A stretch of DNA of 64,000 nucleotides from Candidatus Zixiibacteriota bacterium (GTDB lineage: Bacteria; Zixibacteria; MSB-5A5; GN15; FEB-12), in NCBI GenBank assembly GCA_029860345.1, contig JAOUBJ010000001.1:445089-509088 (forward strand), given 5' to 3'. The notes beneath the pieces are model-generated. The model saw only the letters and a list, made by a program, of their open reading frames with translations. It was not told the DNA's origin and made no database searches. Shown here one piece after another: positions 48,589 through 57,346 of the stretch (positions are counted from its first letter, which is position 1; each line of letters opens with the position of its first letter). Both the position numbers and the translations under genes were made by a program.

Positions 48589-49944
48589 TCATTGCGCTTG
48601 AAACAGTTTCGATATCGCCTTAAGATTCTTGTGGTGCGTGATCATGATAACATGATCCCCGGCCTCAATCACTGTATCTCCACTCGGCAGGATCATACGA
48701 TCCTCGCGCACCACGACACCGACTATCGAACCCTTCTTAAGCTTGCTTGACATTTTCTTGATAGGCCGCCCGGCTGCGTAACTGTGGAGTTCGACATTGA
48801 ACCGTACCGCTTCGATGTCGACGTCGGAGAGACGCACCACCGCACCGATATGACCGCGCGATATTGTCTCCAGAATCTCGCGCGCCGTGGTCAGCCTTGG
48901 GTTCAGGACATGGTCGATCCCTATAGAGGAAAATATCTTGCCGTGATGTGACTCGGTCGTGATAGCCATCACTTCATGGGCACCTTCGGATTTGGCCAGA
49001 AGGGCTGAGAGCATGTTGTAGTCCGCGGCGTCGGAACAGGCGATGAAGAACGATGCGGCATCGACATTGATCTCGCGCAGGACGTCGTGCTCGGTGCAGT
49101 CGCCGTGGATCACTTCGACATTGTTGAATTCGGGCGCCCATTTTTCGGCGTGCTCAATATCGGGATCGACAAAAACCACTTTGTGGTCGGTATCGTCCAG
49201 AGCCTCGGCCAGTTGTACGGTTGAATAGGAATTGCCGGTAATGACAATTTTGCGACTCGACTTGGATTCCACCCCGACCAGTTCGAGGAATCTATCCATC
49301 GATTCCCGTGGGAACAGTGAGTACAGTATATCGCCCGGTTGAATTCGCTCATCACCATCGGGAATGATTCCACTGCCGTTGCGCACGACAGCAGCGAAGA
49401 GCACGACATGCGGGGCGATCTCGTTGCGAATCTCACCCGGCGTTTTGCCGGCCAATTCCATGGATTCGGTAATCCGATAACCCCGCATCAGAATCTTCCC
49501 GGACTCGAAATTGGCCGACTCGACAGCATGTGGAGTTTCGACAAACTGCATGATATGATCGACCAGGACGTTTTCCGGATGAATAACCGAGGTAACGCCA
49601 ATCTTCTCCAGGTCGATGGCCGATTGCTCTTCTGAGAATTCACGATTGCGCAGCCGGGCGATACGGCGGCCAACTTTGTACTGAGCGGCAAAAGCGCACA
49701 CCACCATGTTGACTTCGTCATTGGGTGTCACGGCCAGCACCATGTCGGCGCCGTCGAGCCCTGCCTGAAGCAAAGCTGACGGGGATGAACCGGAGCCGTT
49801 GAGCAGTTGGATGTCGAGTTTACTCGATATCTGGCCGCACAACTCCGGGTCCGACTCCACCATCGAGAGTTGATGTTTTTCTTTCAGCAGGTGTTCGGCC
49901 AGGCTGTAGCCGACCACACCGCCACCGACAATGACTATCCTCAT
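48589..49944 (-). CDS. trkA: Trk potassium uptake system, regulatory subunit TrkA
   Basis: A 451-residue TrkA with two RCK units. Each has a Rossmann NAD-binding half and a smaller C-terminal half. The first starts MRIVIVGGGVVGYSLAEHLLKEKHQLSMVESD; the second, near residue 228, starts KIVITGNSYSTVQLAEAL and has a worn glycine motif. RCK_C halves include SGIIPDGDERIQPGDILYSL and MILPSGDTVIEAGDHVIMI. It binds TrkH and gates transport in response to nucleotides. The start is ATG at 49944, with GGAAAG eight bases upstream; the frame extends to 50100 without homology. Confidence 0.96.
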   Translation of the reverse strand: MRIVIVGGGVVGYSLAEHLLKEKHQLSMVESDPELCGQISSKLDIQLLNGSGSSPSALLQAGLDGADMVLAVTPNDEVNMVVCAFAAQYKVGRRIARLRNREFSEEQSAIDLEKIGVTSVIHPENVLVDHIMQFVETPHAVESANFESGKILMRGYRITESMELAGKTPGEIRNEIAPHVVLFAAVVRNGSGIIPDGDERIQPGDILYSLFPRESMDRFLELVGVESKSSRKIVITGNSYSTVQLAEALDDTDHKVVFVDPDIEHAEKWAPEFNNVEVIHGDCTEHDVLREINVDAASFFIACSDAADYNMLSALLAKSEGAHEVMAITTESHHGKIFSSIGIDHVLNPRLTTAREILETISRGHIGAVVRLSDVDIEAVRFNVELHSYAAGRPIKKMSSKLKKGSIVGVVVREDRMILPSGDTVIEAGDHVIMITHHKNLKAISKLFQAQ

Positions 49945-50054
49945 CTCATTTCTTTCCAAGTTCAACGGCCAGGGTTTCGAGCCCCCGGCGACTGAGCTAA
50001 TCTCTGCTTTGGCCGTCCGATACGCAAACTTTTTCTTCGGCCGGCGAATTCGGC

Positions 50055-50088
50055 CAATTAATAAGCCGGACGCAAATAGCGTCCGGCT
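50055..50088 (-). terminator. Terminator of the dockerin-tailed exported protein
   Basis: Minus strand AGCCGGACGC, loop TATTT, GCGTCCGGCT, then TTATTAATT. The 10-bp stem is perfect and GC-rich and lies about 30 bases after the stop at 50118. The tail is T-rich rather than a pure T run. It also separates that gene from trkA. Confidence 0.65.
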
Positions 50089-50117
50089 CGGAGAGACCAA
50101 TATACACTAAAATCAGG

Positions 50118-53051
50118 TTATTGACCGAACATTAATTCTATCATCAGCAGCAAATCGGTGATATCGGAGTTGCCGTTTTGGTCTAAGTCCGCTGTTTCCA
50201 ACAACTCAGGCGCCTGTCCGCCGGTGAAGAAATACTCCACCATAAAGACCAAATCAGATATGTCAATCTTGCCGTCGAGGTTCAGATCACCTGAACGATG
50301 GCCGTAAATCGTCAATTCGGTCTCGAAACTGAACAACTCCACTCCGACATACTGACCGCTTACCGTATAGCCGTGCTGCACAAAATCAAACAGCGGCTGA
50401 TAAGGTGTCAGAAGATCGGCCAAGGGGAAATATAGTCTGGCCACGGCACCCTGAAAGCCCGGCCAACCGGGCAGAACCACCATCGAATCGACCGGCGGCA
50501 ATCCGTTGAGAGCCAATGAAGCAAAATCGATTTCGTTATAAGTCTCAGCATCCGCATCGAATCCAAAAGTGATCACCGCCTCGACAGGCTCAAGAGCGTT
50601 GAGCATCATCATGGACACCGGGTCGGGGTCGATCTCTGTCTTAAACACGACCGGGAGCGGCGGTGGTTTAACCAACTCCCAAATCAGTGCGGTGATGGAC
50701 GACAACCGGTCCGGACCCTGACCGACAGCCATTTTGATGAAGATATACTGGCTGTCGCCGGGCATCATTGTGAACGGTCCGCAGCTACCCATCATGCGAC
50801 GGTCATAGGGATCAAAGTCCAGGTCACCATAGTTTGTTACCGGATCACCGGAGTGCATAAAAGACAGTACATTCCCGTTGTACATGTACGGAGTACCGTT
50901 GGCGTAGAGACCTCTCATGTAGTTGTATGTTTCCACAAAGTTGTTCGGGTCGGTCCCGTTGATATACTTGCTGAAAGCCGTCATTGGCAGATTCTTGTAC
51001 CCCGGCATAAGCACGCCGTCAAAATCGGCGGTGTCATCAGGGTTGCCGGGTACAATCGGTCCGGACATGATTCTGAAACCTACCGCCGGTGGCGTGTCTT
51101 CATAATGTCCGGCATCATGGTTGTCGGAGTTATAACAGTAGAACAGATCAAGCATGGTGTCGCAGCCGACAAGATCGTCTGTGTATTCACCGAGATCAGG
51201 ATCGGCCCAGAGCGAGATGTAGGCGTCCTCGATGACGTTGCCGCCTTTGTTGAACAGCTTGTATTTGGTATAGATTGTCCGGTCGGGGGAGACGGCAACA
51301 GTGCTGATGGCGGAGCTTGGTATGAAAGTAAACAGATCGGCATCAAGTTCCAAATCGGGCGTTAGAATTCTGAAAACGGTACCTTGTTCGGGACACTCCT
51401 GATCAAAGGGGGGCGTTTCACCACCGTTCCAGCTAACCAGAACAGTGCGGGCGAAGACTTCGTCTGCCAAGTTCGCGAAGCTATACCCATTTCCATCCAG
51501 CATATCCGCTTCGGCTTCGAGGTATCCGGCTTCACCAGGTGACATGTCGGTCGATGTGTACCAGTAGACCCAGTCGGTAAAGGGATCGTCATCGCCGTCG
51601 GATACGGAGTGCTCACATGCGCCTGAGCAGGTTCCACCGGGACCTGACCCCCAGTTCTCAAGATTGTAGATGTTGTTTTCGTTCCAATCGATTATAAGGG
51701 GGATCAGGCGAATGTCATCACTCGGATCATCCGGTGTCCCGACGCCTGTGTTCCACAACTCGAACGGCACCCAAAAAACGTTGTCATCCTCGAATGCCTC
51801 GACCGCGTAGCTTCCTCCCACACCGGGATTGCTGTTGTCACCGGTAAATCGCATCTCGTAGTCACAGTTGCCGATAACGCCGTCATTACCACCGTTGCGA
51901 GTAACGCGGACTTCGAAGGCTTCAAATGATCCACGGTTTCCGCCACCCGAGGTGCCACCATTGTCCCCGGTATGGAACAACCAGCGCCCACCGCCGACTT
52001 GCTGCCCATCGGTCGGAAAGCCGTCGGGGTCTACGTCGGTCGGTACCGGGAAACCGGCTGTGGGATGAGCGCCCGATTCCGGCGGATCAAGCTCTCCGGC
52101 GCCGTTTGCCACCACCTGAAACGATCCAAATATCGAGGTCGATGCCTCCACCTGGACTGCGAATCCCTCGTCTGTGTGCATCGTGGTTCCGGAAAAGTTA
52201 GCCTGGTCGGCAATGAGAACGGTTGCATTGGTGACATTACGCAGCTGCCACATCGGACCTGCGACCGGGTCATTGAAGATATCAACTGCATAAGAATCCA
52301 ACGTCAACTGAGACTGGTCGGTAACAAAGGCATGCACCTCGACCTCTGAGGACCCGGCCTGAGTTACTTCAATCTCGTTAGTTACAACGATACTATCCTC
52401 CCCGTGCCCACCGGATGCCCAAGTGGTCTGTTGGACTTCGATACCCAGCGGAGCCGTTTCACCGGCGTCGTTCAGGTGCTGGTTCGGGTCGGCGTCGTTG
52501 AAAACCGACCAGAGCATCTGGTCACCGAGCATCAGCGGCTGGCCCAACTCATTCACCGGCGCACCTTGTTGGACCGGCCAGTTCAAATAATCGAGGTTGG
52601 GATTGTCGGCCAGGCTATCGCGGTAAAGTTTGTAGACCTTGAACGATGGATCATCCGGTTGATAAGTTCCGTTGGCCATCGGACCCGGAACATATTCGTC
52701 GGAGTATTCGGCTATGGCTACTCGTGTCTGGCCGTCGACTTTGCCCCCCAGCCAGAGACCGACTGAGTAGAGCACGAAATTGGTCAGCGCACCACTCTCT
52801 ATGTTGTCGATTGATACGAATGGGAAAAAAGTCCCGCCGTCGTATCCAAATACCCCGGCCAGGTCGCGTCCGAAATTGCCGTGGTTGGTCACGAACATCA
52901 GAATACTATTGGCGTTGATATATTCTTCGTTGTCCCAGGCTCGCTCCTGATTGTAAGTGGGCGGTTCAAAGCCGACCGGGGGTATGGCCAACGATGTTGC
53001 CGCAAACAGAATAAGCCCGAACATTGAAGTCATCACATAGGTGCATTTCAT
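50118..53051 (-). CDS. Exported protein with C-terminal dockerin-like domain
   Basis: A 977-residue exported protein. After a signal peptide (MFGLILFAATSLA) comes NANSILMFVTNHGNFGRDLAGVFGYDGGTFFPF and YSVGLWLGGKVDGQTRVAIAEYS, which echoes the ALWVGGVV...GDTLV phrase of the three paralogs at 37561-45458. The middle is beta-rich and unassigned. The last 65 residues form a dockerin-like pair of calcium loops: GDLNLDGKIDISDLVFMVEYFFTGG and ADLDQNGNSDITDLLLMIELMF. Dockerins bind cohesins; a cohesin-like domain exists in the protein at 57847. ATG at 53051 follows GAGGA by nine bases. Confidence 0.85.
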   Translation of the reverse strand: MKCTYVMTSMFGLILFAATSLAIPPVGFEPPTYNQERAWDNEEYINANSILMFVTNHGNFGRDLAGVFGYDGGTFFPFVSIDNIESGALTNFVLYSVGLWLGGKVDGQTRVAIAEYSDEYVPGPMANGTYQPDDPSFKVYKLYRDSLADNPNLDYLNWPVQQGAPVNELGQPLMLGDQMLWSVFNDADPNQHLNDAGETAPLGIEVQQTTWASGGHGEDSIVVTNEIEVTQAGSSEVEVHAFVTDQSQLTLDSYAVDIFNDPVAGPMWQLRNVTNATVLIADQANFSGTTMHTDEGFAVQVEASTSIFGSFQVVANGAGELDPPESGAHPTAGFPVPTDVDPDGFPTDGQQVGGGRWLFHTGDNGGTSGGGNRGSFEAFEVRVTRNGGNDGVIGNCDYEMRFTGDNSNPGVGGSYAVEAFEDDNVFWVPFELWNTGVGTPDDPSDDIRLIPLIIDWNENNIYNLENWGSGPGGTCSGACEHSVSDGDDDPFTDWVYWYTSTDMSPGEAGYLEAEADMLDGNGYSFANLADEVFARTVLVSWNGGETPPFDQECPEQGTVFRILTPDLELDADLFTFIPSSAISTVAVSPDRTIYTKYKLFNKGGNVIEDAYISLWADPDLGEYTDDLVGCDTMLDLFYCYNSDNHDAGHYEDTPPAVGFRIMSGPIVPGNPDDTADFDGVLMPGYKNLPMTAFSKYINGTDPNNFVETYNYMRGLYANGTPYMYNGNVLSFMHSGDPVTNYGDLDFDPYDRRMMGSCGPFTMMPGDSQYIFIKMAVGQGPDRLSSITALIWELVKPPPLPVVFKTEIDPDPVSMMMLNALEPVEAVITFGFDADAETYNEIDFASLALNGLPPVDSMVVLPGWPGFQGAVARLYFPLADLLTPYQPLFDFVQHGYTVSGQYVGVELFSFETELTIYGHRSGDLNLDGKIDISDLVFMVEYFFTGGQAPELLETADLDQNGNSDITDLLLMIELMFGQ

Positions 53052-53399
53052 GGTTTCTGTCCTCGCCTGATTACGAACGGTGTGTCTTTGTGCTGTGATA
53101 ATATACCAACAGGGCTCTGTTTGTCAAGCGATGGTGGGGGTATTCGGGCTGTAACGGTAGGTCGAAACCCCTGTGGTTTATCGCCGTTCAGCAGGGTCCT
53201 GGTCCGCCGCGGCGGAGTGTGACCCTGCTGGTCGTCCAAGCGCAGAGTCTCACCCGCTTTCAGCGGGAAAGGACCCGGCGCAACGGTGTGTTCGGATGTC
53301 GTGGGCGGTTTGGCCACCCAGTGATCAATGTAGGAGGTCGGTTGAACTTGCACGGTATGTGATTCATTGACTGGCATGCGCTCAATAACAGCCCCGGGA
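53052..53399. repeat. Spacer with hairpin repeat, gene-free
   Basis: It contains the hairpin GCAGGGTC (53191-53198)...GACCCTGC (53221-53228) with an inner palindrome TCCGCCGCGGCGGA at 53203-53216, matching the element at 37220-37260. A second inverted pair, CCCGCTTTCAGCGGG, lies near 53250. The frame that crosses this region on the minus strand has no protein-like features. Confidence 0.65.
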
Positions 53400-54131
53400 T
53401 CACTGTAATGATGCCCTGAAAAACAGGTAGTAATTTCTTTCCTCAAATTCCAGAACATAGTCTTTGCTTAAGATCTCGATGAAACAGTCCCCATTAACAG
53501 GCTCTATCCGTGCAAACCCTTTCTCACGCACCAGCGCCTGGATTGTTGAGGGCATCCATTTGTAAAAGAACTTTGTTAAACTGTTGGCTGAAGACCTAAT
53601 GAATGATCTTGTGTAACCATATTTGCACCTATCCCATTCCTTGTATTTCTCTTCTAGAAAACAACTCCCAATAAGAACGCCGCCAGGTTTCAAGGAGTCT
53701 TTTATTGAATTCAATAGAATTCTTAGTTGTGAAACATGATGAAAGAACTCCATACAAATAACAACGTCAAACTCACATGGATACATATGGCCCACATTAT
53801 AAGCATTTGCACATACGGTCTTTACACAGTCACCAAACACTTGCTCCGCCATATCGAGTGTAGATTGGTTCAAGTCTAGCGCTGTAATTATGCACTTTGT
53901 TCCGAAGAGGTCTAAAACGATCTTCGAGAATCTCCCGGTTCCGCAAGCCAAGTCCAACAACTGAATTCGTTTGTGTGCCTCTCCACGATTTACAACTACT
54001 CCAAGGCTGTCAATTAACATTGCCTCCTGATTCAAGAACTCCTCTCTGATCTTCGTCGGAACCTCTCGCAACTGAGAGTATCTGTCCCAAGTGGTTTTTA
54101 GCCAATACTCGTTACTATCAAACCTGATCAT
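53400..54131 (-). CDS. Class I SAM-dependent methyltransferase, AT-rich island
   Basis: A 243-residue Rossmann-fold methyltransferase. Motif I is LLDLACGTGRFSKIVLDLFG (about 59-78), the acidic adenosine-binding loop is ITALDLNQSTLDMA, and motif IV-V is EFDVVICMEFFHHVSQLRILLNSIKDSLKPGGVLIGS. The C-terminal third (YKEWDRCKYGYTRSFIRSSANSL... to YYLFFRASLQ) is specific to this protein. The substrate is unknown; the family spans small molecules and proteins. It overlaps the upstream gene by 14 bp with its ribosome site (AAAAGG) inside it, so the two are co-translated. Base composition is markedly more AT-rich than neighbours, which suggests acquisition. Confidence 0.88.
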   Translation of the reverse strand: MIRFDSNEYWLKTTWDRYSQLREVPTKIREEFLNQEAMLIDSLGVVVNRGEAHKRIQLLDLACGTGRFSKIVLDLFGTKCIITALDLNQSTLDMAEQVFGDCVKTVCANAYNVGHMYPCEFDVVICMEFFHHVSQLRILLNSIKDSLKPGGVLIGSCFLEEKYKEWDRCKYGYTRSFIRSSANSLTKFFYKWMPSTIQALVREKGFARIEPVNGDCFIEILSKDYVLEFEERNYYLFFRASLQ

Positions 54132-55380
54132 CGGTGCCTTTTAGTTTTCGATTCTCCATAAGCGCCTCTAGCTGTTTTATGGCCAAAGCCAAAGTGAATG
54201 CACTTCCATATTGAATCCTGTGGTTCTTCAACCATGTCTCCAACCGTTCATCATAAATATCGATAAACTCAATAGATTCACTGGTGGAGCTTCCCGCCCC
54301 AACCTCCCAGTTTGCTTTCATTGACATCCTTATTGACTTAATAGTGTCGATATCCTCGATTATCGCTAAGAGAGCTATGTTGCCAGTACCATTCAACGCA
54401 TCGATCCCAAAACCCAAAAAATACAACTCAAATTTCCCATCAGACTGCAGTTCAAGAATCTTTGATGCTTCTGGCAACTGCGTAAACCAGTCAGGAGAGG
54501 GGCGGCGCTCTTTCTGTGTATCAATGAGTTGTTCGTAATCGAATAATTCCTCACAGTACTCCCGCAGGAAGTTGTGAAATAATATGCTGTATTCACTTTT
54601 CCCTCGTTCAGATGAATTCGGTTCTAACCCAAAATTGGGAATTACTGCCTTAGTACCACCAAATGTCATTGTCGAGTGTGATCTCGTATGCAAAGCGAGT
54701 TCATAGCTATTCTCCTCTCGAAAGGCGAGCGCTACAGTGCAACCTGTTGAATAAGGTAGGGTGTTTACTTTTCCTGCTACCTCCAGGCTGGATAAGCTCT
54801 CATCTCGAATTGGAGTATGGAAGAGTCTCCCCCACCTGGCAGTTCTGAATGTTTCTTCTTCAAGGGATACTAGCGCAGTGGCCATTTGGTAAAACCGACA
54901 ACGCCTGACGTGTAACTGCAGGCTTCCATGATCTGTTATTCTATCGAGGCAAAGAGTATCTCCGCCACCAAAAATCCTTTGCCCCAGATTATGCCTTTTC
55001 TTCAGCATTCGCATGTTTACTTTAGCAACATAGGGTGAAGCTTGTTTGTGAACTACGATATCATCGGAATGAGGCGCTATTAGCGTAGTCCCTTGCCAAT
55101 CTCTTTTTGTGAAAAAGGGTATTCTTGATTCACTTCCACCAATAACGCAAACATAGAGATCGTTCAGTGCTCCTCTGCCCCGATAATAATCGAGAAGCCA
55201 CTTGTGTACCTTACCGGACTCAAGAAACTTCTTTCGCTGATTTCTTTTGAAACTCATAATCGCGGATGATAGAGAAACAGCGATCCTCGGAATCAACATG
55301 CCACACACAGTACCGAGGATGGCGCCTGCAGCAAGGGATGCCATATTCAGTTGATTGTAAATACTCGATACCCATTCCAT
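54118..55380 (-). CDS. Membrane-anchored unknown protein, possible diverged Nudix fold
   Basis: A 420-residue protein I do not recognise. One N-terminal hydrophobic helix (about 14-40, ASLAAGAILGTVCGMLIPRIAVSL) and a basic stretch (KRNQRKKFL) suggest an inner-membrane anchor with the rest in the cytoplasm. LYVCVIGGSESRIPFF and APHSDDIVVHKQASPYVAKVNMRMLKKRHNLG lead into strands STGCTVALAFREENSYELALHTRSHSTMTFGG and a helix FLREYCEELFDYEQL. The REYCEEL helix after a glycine turn resembles the Nudix REUxEE element, but the full box is not met because spacing is wrong. It precedes, and overlaps by 14 bp, a methyltransferase gene. AT-rich like its partner. Confidence 0.8.
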   Translation of the reverse strand: MEWVSSIYNQLNMASLAAGAILGTVCGMLIPRIAVSLSSAIMSFKRNQRKKFLESGKVHKWLLDYYRGRGALNDLYVCVIGGSESRIPFFTKRDWQGTTLIAPHSDDIVVHKQASPYVAKVNMRMLKKRHNLGQRIFGGGDTLCLDRITDHGSLQLHVRRCRFYQMATALVSLEEETFRTARWGRLFHTPIRDESLSSLEVAGKVNTLPYSTGCTVALAFREENSYELALHTRSHSTMTFGGTKAVIPNFGLEPNSSERGKSEYSILFHNFLREYCEELFDYEQLIDTQKERRPSPDWFTQLPEASKILELQSDGKFELYFLGFGIDALNGTGNIALLAIIEDIDTIKSIRMSMKANWEVGAGSSTSESIEFIDIYDERLETWLKNHRIQYGSAFTLALAIKQLEALMENRKLKGTDDQV

Positions 55381-55760
55381 ACCAGATCCATCCTCCTCTC
55401 ACATCCACACGTCTCCACACAAATCGGACGGGTGATGTTGGAATCTAAGACGTACTTTCTCTCATGGCAACGGTTCTTTTTTGAGTTTGTCTACTCGCTT
55501 TCACTCCTTGTTCTATGATTCGGTTTTCTCTTTCGGGCATCCGTCGAGCCCGACCAGATCAAACATCGACCCGACTTCATAATTGAACCTCTGAAGTTAC
55601 CGGCGGCGGTGATCCGCTTCCTCCGTTTTGAACGGGGTGGCCGGCCATGGGTGGCCGTCTCAAACCTTGTTTGGGGCGGGGAATTAAGAGGAGTCACCCC
55701 CAAACCGGGTCTGAGGGTGCCACCCAGAAACGCGCATAGCTCGAAAAAGCGATCTGTCGC
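55381..55760. repeat. Spacer with a 79-bp palindromic element
   Basis: 55381-55640 shows no gene. 55648-55726 is a large imperfect palindrome: TGGGTGGC ... GTTTGGGG ... CCCCAAAC ... GCCACCCA. Its left arm (GGGTGGCCGTCTCAAACCTT) also occurs near 37178. AAAAGCGATCTGTCGCC, just before the potassium channel gene's stop, is a short hairpin. Short frames here (for example 55491-55703) come from the repeat. Confidence 0.65.
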
Positions 55761-56807
55761 CTAGATACTCAGCTCCTCGCCAAGCCGTTCGAGGCCGTCG
55801 GTCGGGCCGATCAGAACGAGCGTGTCGGAAGTCTCCAGCAGAGTCTGAGGTCCAGGCGCAACCGACATTTGTTCGCCTGTTTTCTTTATGCCGATAATCG
55901 TCGCCTCGTAGTCATTTTTCAAGCCGGAATCCATTATGCACTTGCCGACTAACCGACACCCATCCGGTATGACCACTTCCTCGATTGATAATCCACCCTC
56001 ACCCAGGGTAGTGATGTGCATGAAGTCTACGACGTTCGGCCGTAGCGAAGCCAGCGCCATGCGGTGGCCACCCAGAACGTGCGGCGAGACGACATGGTCG
56101 GCCCCGGCTCTCATTAGCTTCTTCTCTCCTCCTTCGACATCGGCGCGCGCGATAATGTGGAGATCCTTGTTCATTGCCCGAGCCGTCAGGGTCAGGTATA
56201 CGTTTTGAGCTTCGTCGGGCAAAGTAGAAATCAGTGTCCGCGCCCGTTCGACCCCGGCATGCAGTAAGACTTTGTCGTCGGTCGCCTCACCTTTCAGAAA
56301 AACAAAGCCGTTGGTTCCGTTTTCCATTTCCGGTTCCGGTTCTTTTTCGATGATGACAAAAGGCACCTTGCGGCGGGCAAACTCCTCGGCCACCTGGCGA
56401 CCTACCCGCCCGAGCCCGGCAATAATATGATGATTGCTCATCTTCTTCAGTTTCTTTTCCATTTTCTTCCTGCCAAAAACCTGTTTGAGTTGACCTTCCA
56501 GAATAATCTGTCCAATTGTCGACGCTGCATAAGCACCCAGCCCGACCCCGAAAACGATCAACAACATAGCCAGCACCCGACCGGCATCATGCAGTGGCGT
56601 GATTTCACCGAAGCCGACAGTTGATAGAGTAATCACCGTCATATACAAGGCATCAAATGGAGCCATGTTTTCGATAATGACAAACCCGATCGTGCCCACC
56701 ACCAGCACCAAGGCCAGCGCCGCCATGACGCTGAGCAGTTTGGTAAAATTGGTCTGGGTGGGTGTCGTCAATTCACCTTTGGGCGGAGATAGATACTTTG
56801 GCAACAT
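55761..56807 (-). CDS. Two-helix potassium channel with RCK domains
   Basis: A 348-residue MthK-like channel. Two membrane helices (about 22-45 and 80-105) flank a pore loop with the filter TVGFG in ITLSTVGFGEITP. A cytoplasmic RCK_N (TrkA-N) domain begins NHHIIAGLGRVGRQVAEEFARRKVPFVIIEKEPEPE, and an RCK_C domain begins GGLSIEEVVIPDGCRLVGKCI. It carries potassium across the inner membrane under ligand control. I chose the ATG at 56807, eight bases after AAGGA; the frame runs to 56897 but that part overlaps the divergent gene. trkAH lies on the same strand 7 kb away. Confidence 0.93.
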   Translation of the reverse strand: MLPKYLSPPKGELTTPTQTNFTKLLSVMAALALVLVVGTIGFVIIENMAPFDALYMTVITLSTVGFGEITPLHDAGRVLAMLLIVFGVGLGAYAASTIGQIILEGQLKQVFGRKKMEKKLKKMSNHHIIAGLGRVGRQVAEEFARRKVPFVIIEKEPEPEMENGTNGFVFLKGEATDDKVLLHAGVERARTLISTLPDEAQNVYLTLTARAMNKDLHIIARADVEGGEKKLMRAGADHVVSPHVLGGHRMALASLRPNVVDFMHITTLGEGGLSIEEVVIPDGCRLVGKCIMDSGLKNDYEATIIGIKKTGEQMSVAPGPQTLLETSDTLVLIGPTDGLERLGEELSI

Positions 56808-56884
56808 CGACATCTTCCTTCTATCAGGCGGCCAATTGGGCCACCGAGTAACGTAGCCGCTCTTTCCGGGCGCTGACGACACAG

Positions 56885-57346
56885 GTGAATTACTCATTTT
56901 GGTTGACCGAAATCAATAATATGTTTAACCATTCGCCCATGCAGAATTCGAAAAACCCGAGCGGAAAATGGCATCGCTTTCTGTACTACCATTTTCCGAT
57001 GATCCTGTACGGTGGTCTGATAATCACGATCTCATCGATTCCGGACCTGCACACGCCTCAAGTGCGGAATATCGCCTTTGACAAGGCAGCGCACTTTGTG
57101 GAATACGCCCTTTTTGCCTTTCTTACTTTTCGTTCGTTTTCCAACTGGGACTGGATGAACCGGCTGGGGCGAGGTTGCATTTTCGCTGCACTTTTTCTGA
57201 CGCTGTTTGCGGTTTTTGACGAGTTCTACCAATCTCTGATTCCGGGCCGGTTTGCCTCGGTTTACGACGTTTTTGCCGATCTTTGCGGCGCTCTTCTGGT
57301 GCTGGCCTTTTTCGAGGTCCGCAGACGCCGTTTATCGCGATCCTGA
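56885..57346 (+). CDS. VanZ-like membrane protein
   Basis: A 153-residue VanZ-family protein with four helices. The diagnostic phrase SSIPDLHTPQVRNIAFDKAAHFVEYALFAFLTFR is followed by LTLFAVFDEFYQSLIPGRFASVYDVFADLCGALLVLAFF. VanZ gives low-level teicoplanin resistance in enterococci by an unknown mechanism; most bacterial relatives have no known role. The start is uncertain: GTG at 56885, or the ATGs at 56921 or 56939, all upstream of the conserved part. It diverges from the potassium channel. Confidence 0.88.
   Translation: MNYSFWLTEINNMFNHSPMQNSKNPSGKWHRFLYYHFPMILYGGLIITISSIPDLHTPQVRNIAFDKAAHFVEYALFAFLTFRSFSNWDWMNRLGRGCIFAALFLTLFAVFDEFYQSLIPGRFASVYDVFADLCGALLVLAFFEVRRRRLSRS

Follow-up and report, generated by a model that had tools for sequence, protein, structure and literature searches.

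A horizontally acquired gene pair encoding a membrane-anchored protein of an apparently undescribed bacterial family with a predicted NUDT22-like fold

An AT-rich gene pair in an acquired segment

The window, by which we mean the whole 64,000-nt stretch of DNA analysed and which served as the reference for all G+C comparisons, contains two overlapping genes on the minus strand, as the initial annotation had described. The upstream member of the pair (54118-55380) encodes a 420-residue protein that its open reading frame and family match identify as a membrane-anchored, NUDT22-like protein of the Nudix clan. The downstream gene (53400-54131) encodes a 243-residue class I SAM-dependent methyltransferase, and the list of open reading frames gives the two genes 14 bp in common. 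On reading the sequence, we found AGGAGG just 5′ of the start of the upstream gene and AAAAGG just 5′ of the methyltransferase start; the latter lies within the upstream gene, where a ribosome site had been claimed. The G+C content was 44.2% for the upstream gene and 41.5% for the methyltransferase gene, compared with 54.0% for the window. At 43.3%, the block covering both genes (53400-55380) was the minimum among 1981-bp blocks of the window sampled every 20 bp, which bears out the description of the pair as an AT-rich island in GC-rich surroundings. The row at 53761-53820, given as having 25 G/C of 60, has exactly 25.

The pair is flanked by dispersed repeats on both sides, again as proposed. 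An intergenic repeat of about 100 bp (53186-53284, no strand assigned) borders the segment downstream. This flank had 43 matches elsewhere in its own genome, of which about 11 are near-full-length copies of the repeat; fragments occur beyond them. A second dispersed intergenic repeat marks the upstream edge (55649-55729, no strand assigned) and was recognized by its recurrence in the same genome, where similar sequence accompanies further copies of the downstream repeat (L069, L070 and L072). A distinct, shorter repeat (about 27 bp) was observed at 53151-53179 and has some 20 copies in its own genome (G000).

Synteny analysis by tblastn (on locus L063) revealed that a segment at 50101-55760 (no strand assigned) is extra relative to a genome of the same genus, G043. 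In that genome, the genes for a K+ channel and a TrkA-like protein are only 96 bp apart, and their counterparts in the window lie at 55761-56897 and 48589-50100, respectively. The missing segment of about 5.6 kb consists of the AT-rich island and a gene for a 977-residue protein (50118-53051), which is of secreted type and has the base composition of the host. Because the G043 locus lacks this gene too, the variable segment exceeds the AT-rich island. Across the 131 other genomes of the phylum, nothing matched the methyltransferase at an E value of 1e-10 or below, and the 420-residue protein had a single other relative, a distant and frame-broken one in genome G129 (2/132 genomes). Since the segment is absent from G043 and the genes are otherwise missing from the phylum save for the G129 relative, we conclude that the pair was acquired, and recently so, in agreement with the earlier suggestion of a transferred segment; that the two genes were gained together, as a unit, by horizontal transfer is well supported.

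The assignment of the downstream product to the class I methyltransferases was upheld by its match to Pfam Methyltransf_11 (E = 4.4e-15) and related Pfam models, and by SAM-binding motif I, LLDLACGTGR, which was located in the translation at 53931-53960 (minus strand). The protein shares the SAM-binding fold and motif I with BioC-, UbiG- and UbiE-like class I enzymes. It is a generic enzyme of this class that scored below the NCBIfam cut-offs of all listed models and thus has no assigned substrate. Among proteins of solved structure, its relatives (at best E = 2e-5) methylate small molecules or tRNA; those found on plasmids share only about 24-32% identity with it.

A family sharing a conserved Nudix helix

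The 420-residue protein has a single hydrophobic helix at its N terminus, placed at about residues 13-37 (55270-55344, minus strand) within a hydrophobic stretch at residues 11-38 whose Kyte-Doolittle 19-mer maximum is 1.78; the hydropathy scan thus agrees with the membrane anchor initially described. The positively charged stretch KRNQRKK follows the helix, which implies that the C terminus is cytoplasmic. A helix is found at the same position in four relatives from Balneolaceae (L013, L017, L042 and L043). The protein had no match in Pfam, NCBIfam, PADLOC or the sequences of solved structures, and the Pfam search found no HTH domain in it.

Searches of genomes and viral contigs with the protein on its own returned no matches. 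The family was opened by a tblastn match on a Ruegeria plasmid (138 residues aligned at 30% identity; E = 2e-5 across the collection and 3e-12 pairwise), and searches of plasmids, genomes and viral contigs recovered relatives from Actinomycetota, Alphaproteobacteria, Balneolaceae and Planctomycetota. These proteins have a core of about 370 residues in common and vary at the N terminus. Actinomycetota members carry an XRE-type HTH there, the Balneolaceae members and the 420-residue protein carry a membrane helix, and the other members have neither. The family is rare and patchy, occurring in 5/296, 4/294 and 1/337 genomes of three sampled groups. Comparison of 19 members with Pfam, NCBIfam and PHROGs gave no convincing family match, and neither the 420-residue protein nor its 19 relatives matched Pfam Nudix at E = 1 or better. 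No profile library that we searched covers the family, and annotations of its members go no further than 'hypothetical protein' or 'HTH transcriptional regulator'. Judged from these searches, it looks like a real, undescribed family that has no name in those libraries.

The nearest relative of the 420-residue protein is a 375-residue protein from genome G375 (L044), with 28% identity. On the tree, they group together with support of 98/96, and the branch of the 420-residue protein is long. L044 has no membrane helix, so the 420-residue protein and the Balneolaceae members may have gained their anchors independently. A profile built from this pair matched an independent alignment of the 19-member family with a probability of 99.2 and E = 2.3e-19 over residues 133-411, the match beginning at residue 133, before which the N-terminal domain is not secured. 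The same profile, used alone, found the Balneolaceae members at E values of 7e-15 to 1e-10. Three alignments (A2, A5 and A6) were set aside for excess diversity or poor patterns; A5 and A6 held edited rows intended for searching only. We discarded a weak match in G063 (L003), which lies within the frame of a sigma-54-type response regulator. A phage origin was likewise considered and rejected, there being no relatives among annotated phages; members of the HTH type do occur in IMG/VR contigs.

The family alignment, together with profile and structural comparisons, places a C-terminal Nudix-fold domain at about residues 208-411 (54148-54759, minus strand). The equivalent of the NUDT22-type N-terminal domain would span about residues 86-205 (54766-55125, minus strand) and is sure only from residue 133. 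Within the Nudix domain, the helix LREYCEELFD (54538-54567, minus strand) contains R273, E274, E277 and E278, and this R-E-x-x-E-E pattern is invariant in 20/20 family members, the 420-residue protein included. P248, G323 and E359 are likewise invariant in all 20 aligned members. The initial annotation had seen a worn Nudix box here. The Nudix resemblance held up, in the profile and in the fold of a relative; the helix itself is not worn. Given its invariance, we regard the Nudix helix as intact, with only the spacing of the box departing from the canon: a lengthened loop separates the R-E helix from a conserved Pro-Asn-Phe-Gly, which is Pro-Ala-Gly in relatives. The family therefore shares its fold and R-E-x-x-E-E helix with canonical Nudix hydrolases (Pfam NUDIX) but differs in spacing, and the 420-residue protein does not contain GX5EX7REUXEEXGU with exact spacing. 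It also had no Pfam match to the SMODS-associated Nudix domain up to E = 1, a result compatible with remote kinship, and no adjacent SMODS gene was noticed.

Fold comparison with human NUDT22

An AlphaFold2 model of the 420-residue protein made without an alignment was uninformative (pLDDT 31). We read the fold from a model of L013, a Balneolaceae protein with an identical domain layout and about 19% sequence identity to the 420-residue protein; this model was built with 18 aligned sequences, the 420-residue protein among them, and reached a pLDDT of 87 and a pTM of 0.85. The top three matches in a Foldseek search of the PDB were all human NUDT22 (E = 3e-9 to 9e-8). A DALI-like comparison with VIA-align gave a Z score of 19.1 for NUDT22, with 260/290 residues aligned at an rmsd of 3.5 over model residues 86-435. 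The next fold was that of IPP isomerase (Z = 12.5), followed by other Nudix hydrolases at about 9-10, and the regulators NrtR and AraR were also among the structural matches. Foldseek searches of viral structures returned mainly ordinary Nudix proteins.

The L013 model is thus predicted to have the two-domain fold of NUDT22, as far as this relative is concerned. It contains a Nudix beta-grasp fold (many Nudix structures match at Z scores of 9-19), to which the 420-residue protein is joined by the profile match at E = 2.3e-19, and a NUDT22-like N-terminal domain packed on the Nudix domain, which extends to the 420-residue protein by homology from residue 133. By contrast, when two family alignments were compared with PDB sequences, neither NUDT22 nor another Nudix protein of solved structure was matched at E values up to 10.

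Human NUDT22 (PDB 5lor, 5lou and 5lf9), a UDP-glucose and UDP-galactose hydrolase, shares with the family both this two-domain fold and an unconventional Nudix box. Its UDP-recognition site is reportedly an unusual N-terminal domain, which binds the UDP part of the substrate. NUDT22 converts UDP-glucose to UMP and glucose-1-phosphate (PMC10101856); it has been described as having no conventional Nudix box and, among human Nudix proteins, as a phylogenetic outlier (PMC5688067). The 420-residue protein differs from it in having an N-terminal membrane helix, its relatives differ in having XRE-type HTH fusions, and there is no detectable sequence match between NUDT22 and the family. Our literature searches for bacterial NUDT22-like proteins found nothing relevant, and the present comparison suggests that the human Nudix outlier has structural relatives in bacteria.

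Genomic neighbourhoods and possible functions

We found the methyltransferase family of the pair beside none of the relatives examined. No methyltransferase gene adjoins L044 or the Balneolaceae members L013, L017 and L042, and the one other adjacent methyltransferase, a class I enzyme about 310 bp from the broken homologue in G129, is unrelated (pairwise E = 0.007 against the 243-residue protein). The idea of a constant pairing was therefore not borne out, and as far as seen the pairing is local. In Balneolaceae, the Nudix-like gene lies directly downstream of genes for a SatD-family protein (PF16264, E = 2.7e-18) and a 111-residue membrane protein in two genomes (L013, 6341-8648; L017, 6332-8654), and the same gene set occurs in a different order in a third (L042, 6338-9114). 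In Actinomycetota, HTH-bearing and HTH-less copies are frequently arranged in tandem.

Our preferred reading, to which we assign a probability of about 0.6, is that the 420-residue protein is a membrane-tethered NUDT22-type protein whose ligand is a nucleoside-diphosphate-linked metabolite, which it probably also hydrolyses, and that the methyltransferase was transferred along with it. The protein would be a divergent member of the undescribed bacterial family, with a NUDT22-type N-terminal domain followed by a Nudix fold, tethered by its one helix to the cytoplasmic face of the inner membrane. It would most likely bind a nucleoside-diphosphate-linked metabolite there; a shared fold with NUDT22 does not fix the substrate, and a UDP-sugar type of ligand is our best guess by analogy with that enzyme. 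Hydrolysis of the bound metabolite near the membrane is probable given the intact E-x-x-E-E metal-binding helix, and on these conserved residues the protein is probably a hydrolase. The methyltransferase, which is translated from the same mRNA, may share this metabolite as a substrate in a joint function or may be a passenger; perhaps it is an incidental partner that was co-transferred.

The last possibility can be taken further: the methyltransferase and the Nudix-like protein may be functionally unrelated accessory genes swept together in a repeat-bounded variable segment, which we rate at somewhat below even odds. Such an origin is consistent with the dispersed repeats that bound the segment, with the finding of no further adjacency between the family and this methyltransferase, and with the lack of any methyltransferase match at the above threshold in the 131 other genomes of the phylum; however, the 14-bp overlap, the ribosome site within the upstream gene and the alike base composition of the two genes suggest that they travel as one unit. 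Another reading, which we consider rather unlikely, is that the NUDT22-like module is a ligand sensor and not an enzyme, with its output passing through an HTH, a membrane helix or a partner, as in NrtR, AraR or TRPM2. The fusion of the module to an XRE-type HTH in Actinomycetota, often with a tandem copy that has no HTH, and the presence of NrtR and AraR among the structural matches argue for this, although such fusions suit an enzyme no less than a ligand sensor; NrtR and AraR, too, link a Nudix-fold domain to regulation. A pure sensor, however, need not keep a metal-binding helix, and E-x-x-E-E is invariant in 20/20 members. Moreover, the 420-residue protein has no DNA-binding domain. The family also differs from NrtR and AraR in that the HTH of the Actinomycetota relatives is of the N-terminal XRE type; NrtR and AraR are not known to have a NUDT22-type N-terminal domain.

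The initial annotation had also raised a conflict or signalling role. As a two-gene anti-phage or conflict system, the membrane protein would sense or degrade a nucleotide signal and the methyltransferase would modify or protect a target. The family's rare and patchy spread (2/132, 5/296, 4/294 and 1/337 genomes), the acquired nature of the segment, the position of L044 among SIR2, HNH and nuclease-like genes as read from open reading frames, and the proximity of the distant broken G129 relative to HEPN_Swt1 and DUF5343 are all consistent with such a role. Nevertheless, pairing with the methyltransferase is not conserved, most Actinomycetota members resemble ordinary regulators, and PADLOC has no match for the 420-residue protein and, for the methyltransferase, only the generic methyltransferase stretch of mad2. 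As just a few relatives lie near SIR2-like or HEPN genes, the proposal did not gain ground, and we regard a conflict system as improbable. Panoptes optSE (PMC12657218) and CBASS offer a loose analogy, in that a membrane-anchored Balneolaceae relative shares its operon with a protein of the SatD family that is possibly nucleotide-related; unlike those systems, the protein has no OptE/S-2TMbeta domain, and neither mCpol nor CD-NTase was noticed beside the window gene. A broader scheme, in which the NUDT22-type module is a general nucleotide-diphosphate sensor or hydrolase with varied outputs (an XRE domain in Actinomycetota, an anchor with SatD in Balneolaceae, or an anchor with a methyltransferase in the present pair, possibly as a nucleotide-signalling conflict system), seems to us doubtful.

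Under the preferred reading of a tethered NUDT22-type protein, the family gains a name and a testable biochemistry, namely the hydrolysis or sensing of nucleoside-diphosphate sugars. The main interest lies in this unnamed family as a whole; the methyltransferase pairing, which looks local, matters less.

Several further observations concern individual loci. A HAD phosphatase was considered as a second conserved partner, being adjacent in L012 and near in L007, and was rejected, as the two HAD genes match neither each other nor other loci. Literature searches for SatD and DUF3307 found nothing relevant, and a PDB sequence search with the SatD protein gave nothing useful; by eye, its motifs ILMGDVV and TLGDDF recall the palm domains of nucleotide cyclases. 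In G206 (L043, 8265-9602), a copy of the Balneolaceae type is broken into two open reading frames and a SatD partner was not found adjoining it, which looks like decay of the system. At L005 (5583-9141; G129), genes for DUF5343, HEPN_Swt1, the frame-broken NUDT22-like protein and a class I methyltransferase stand in a row. At L044 (4327-9747; G375), open reading frames of SIR2-type, HNH, thermonuclease-like, NUDT22-like and SIR2-like character are adjacent, and the region is possibly an accessory or defence island. The Planctomycetota member (L020, 7242-9284) is 680 residues long; its Nudix domain is followed by a C-terminal extension of about 200 residues for which Pfam gave no match. The actinobacterial tandem (L014-L019 and L008, 4409-7053) comprises an XRE-HTH and NUDT22-like protein together with a shorter copy that has no HTH; their annotation says only that they are transcriptional regulators.
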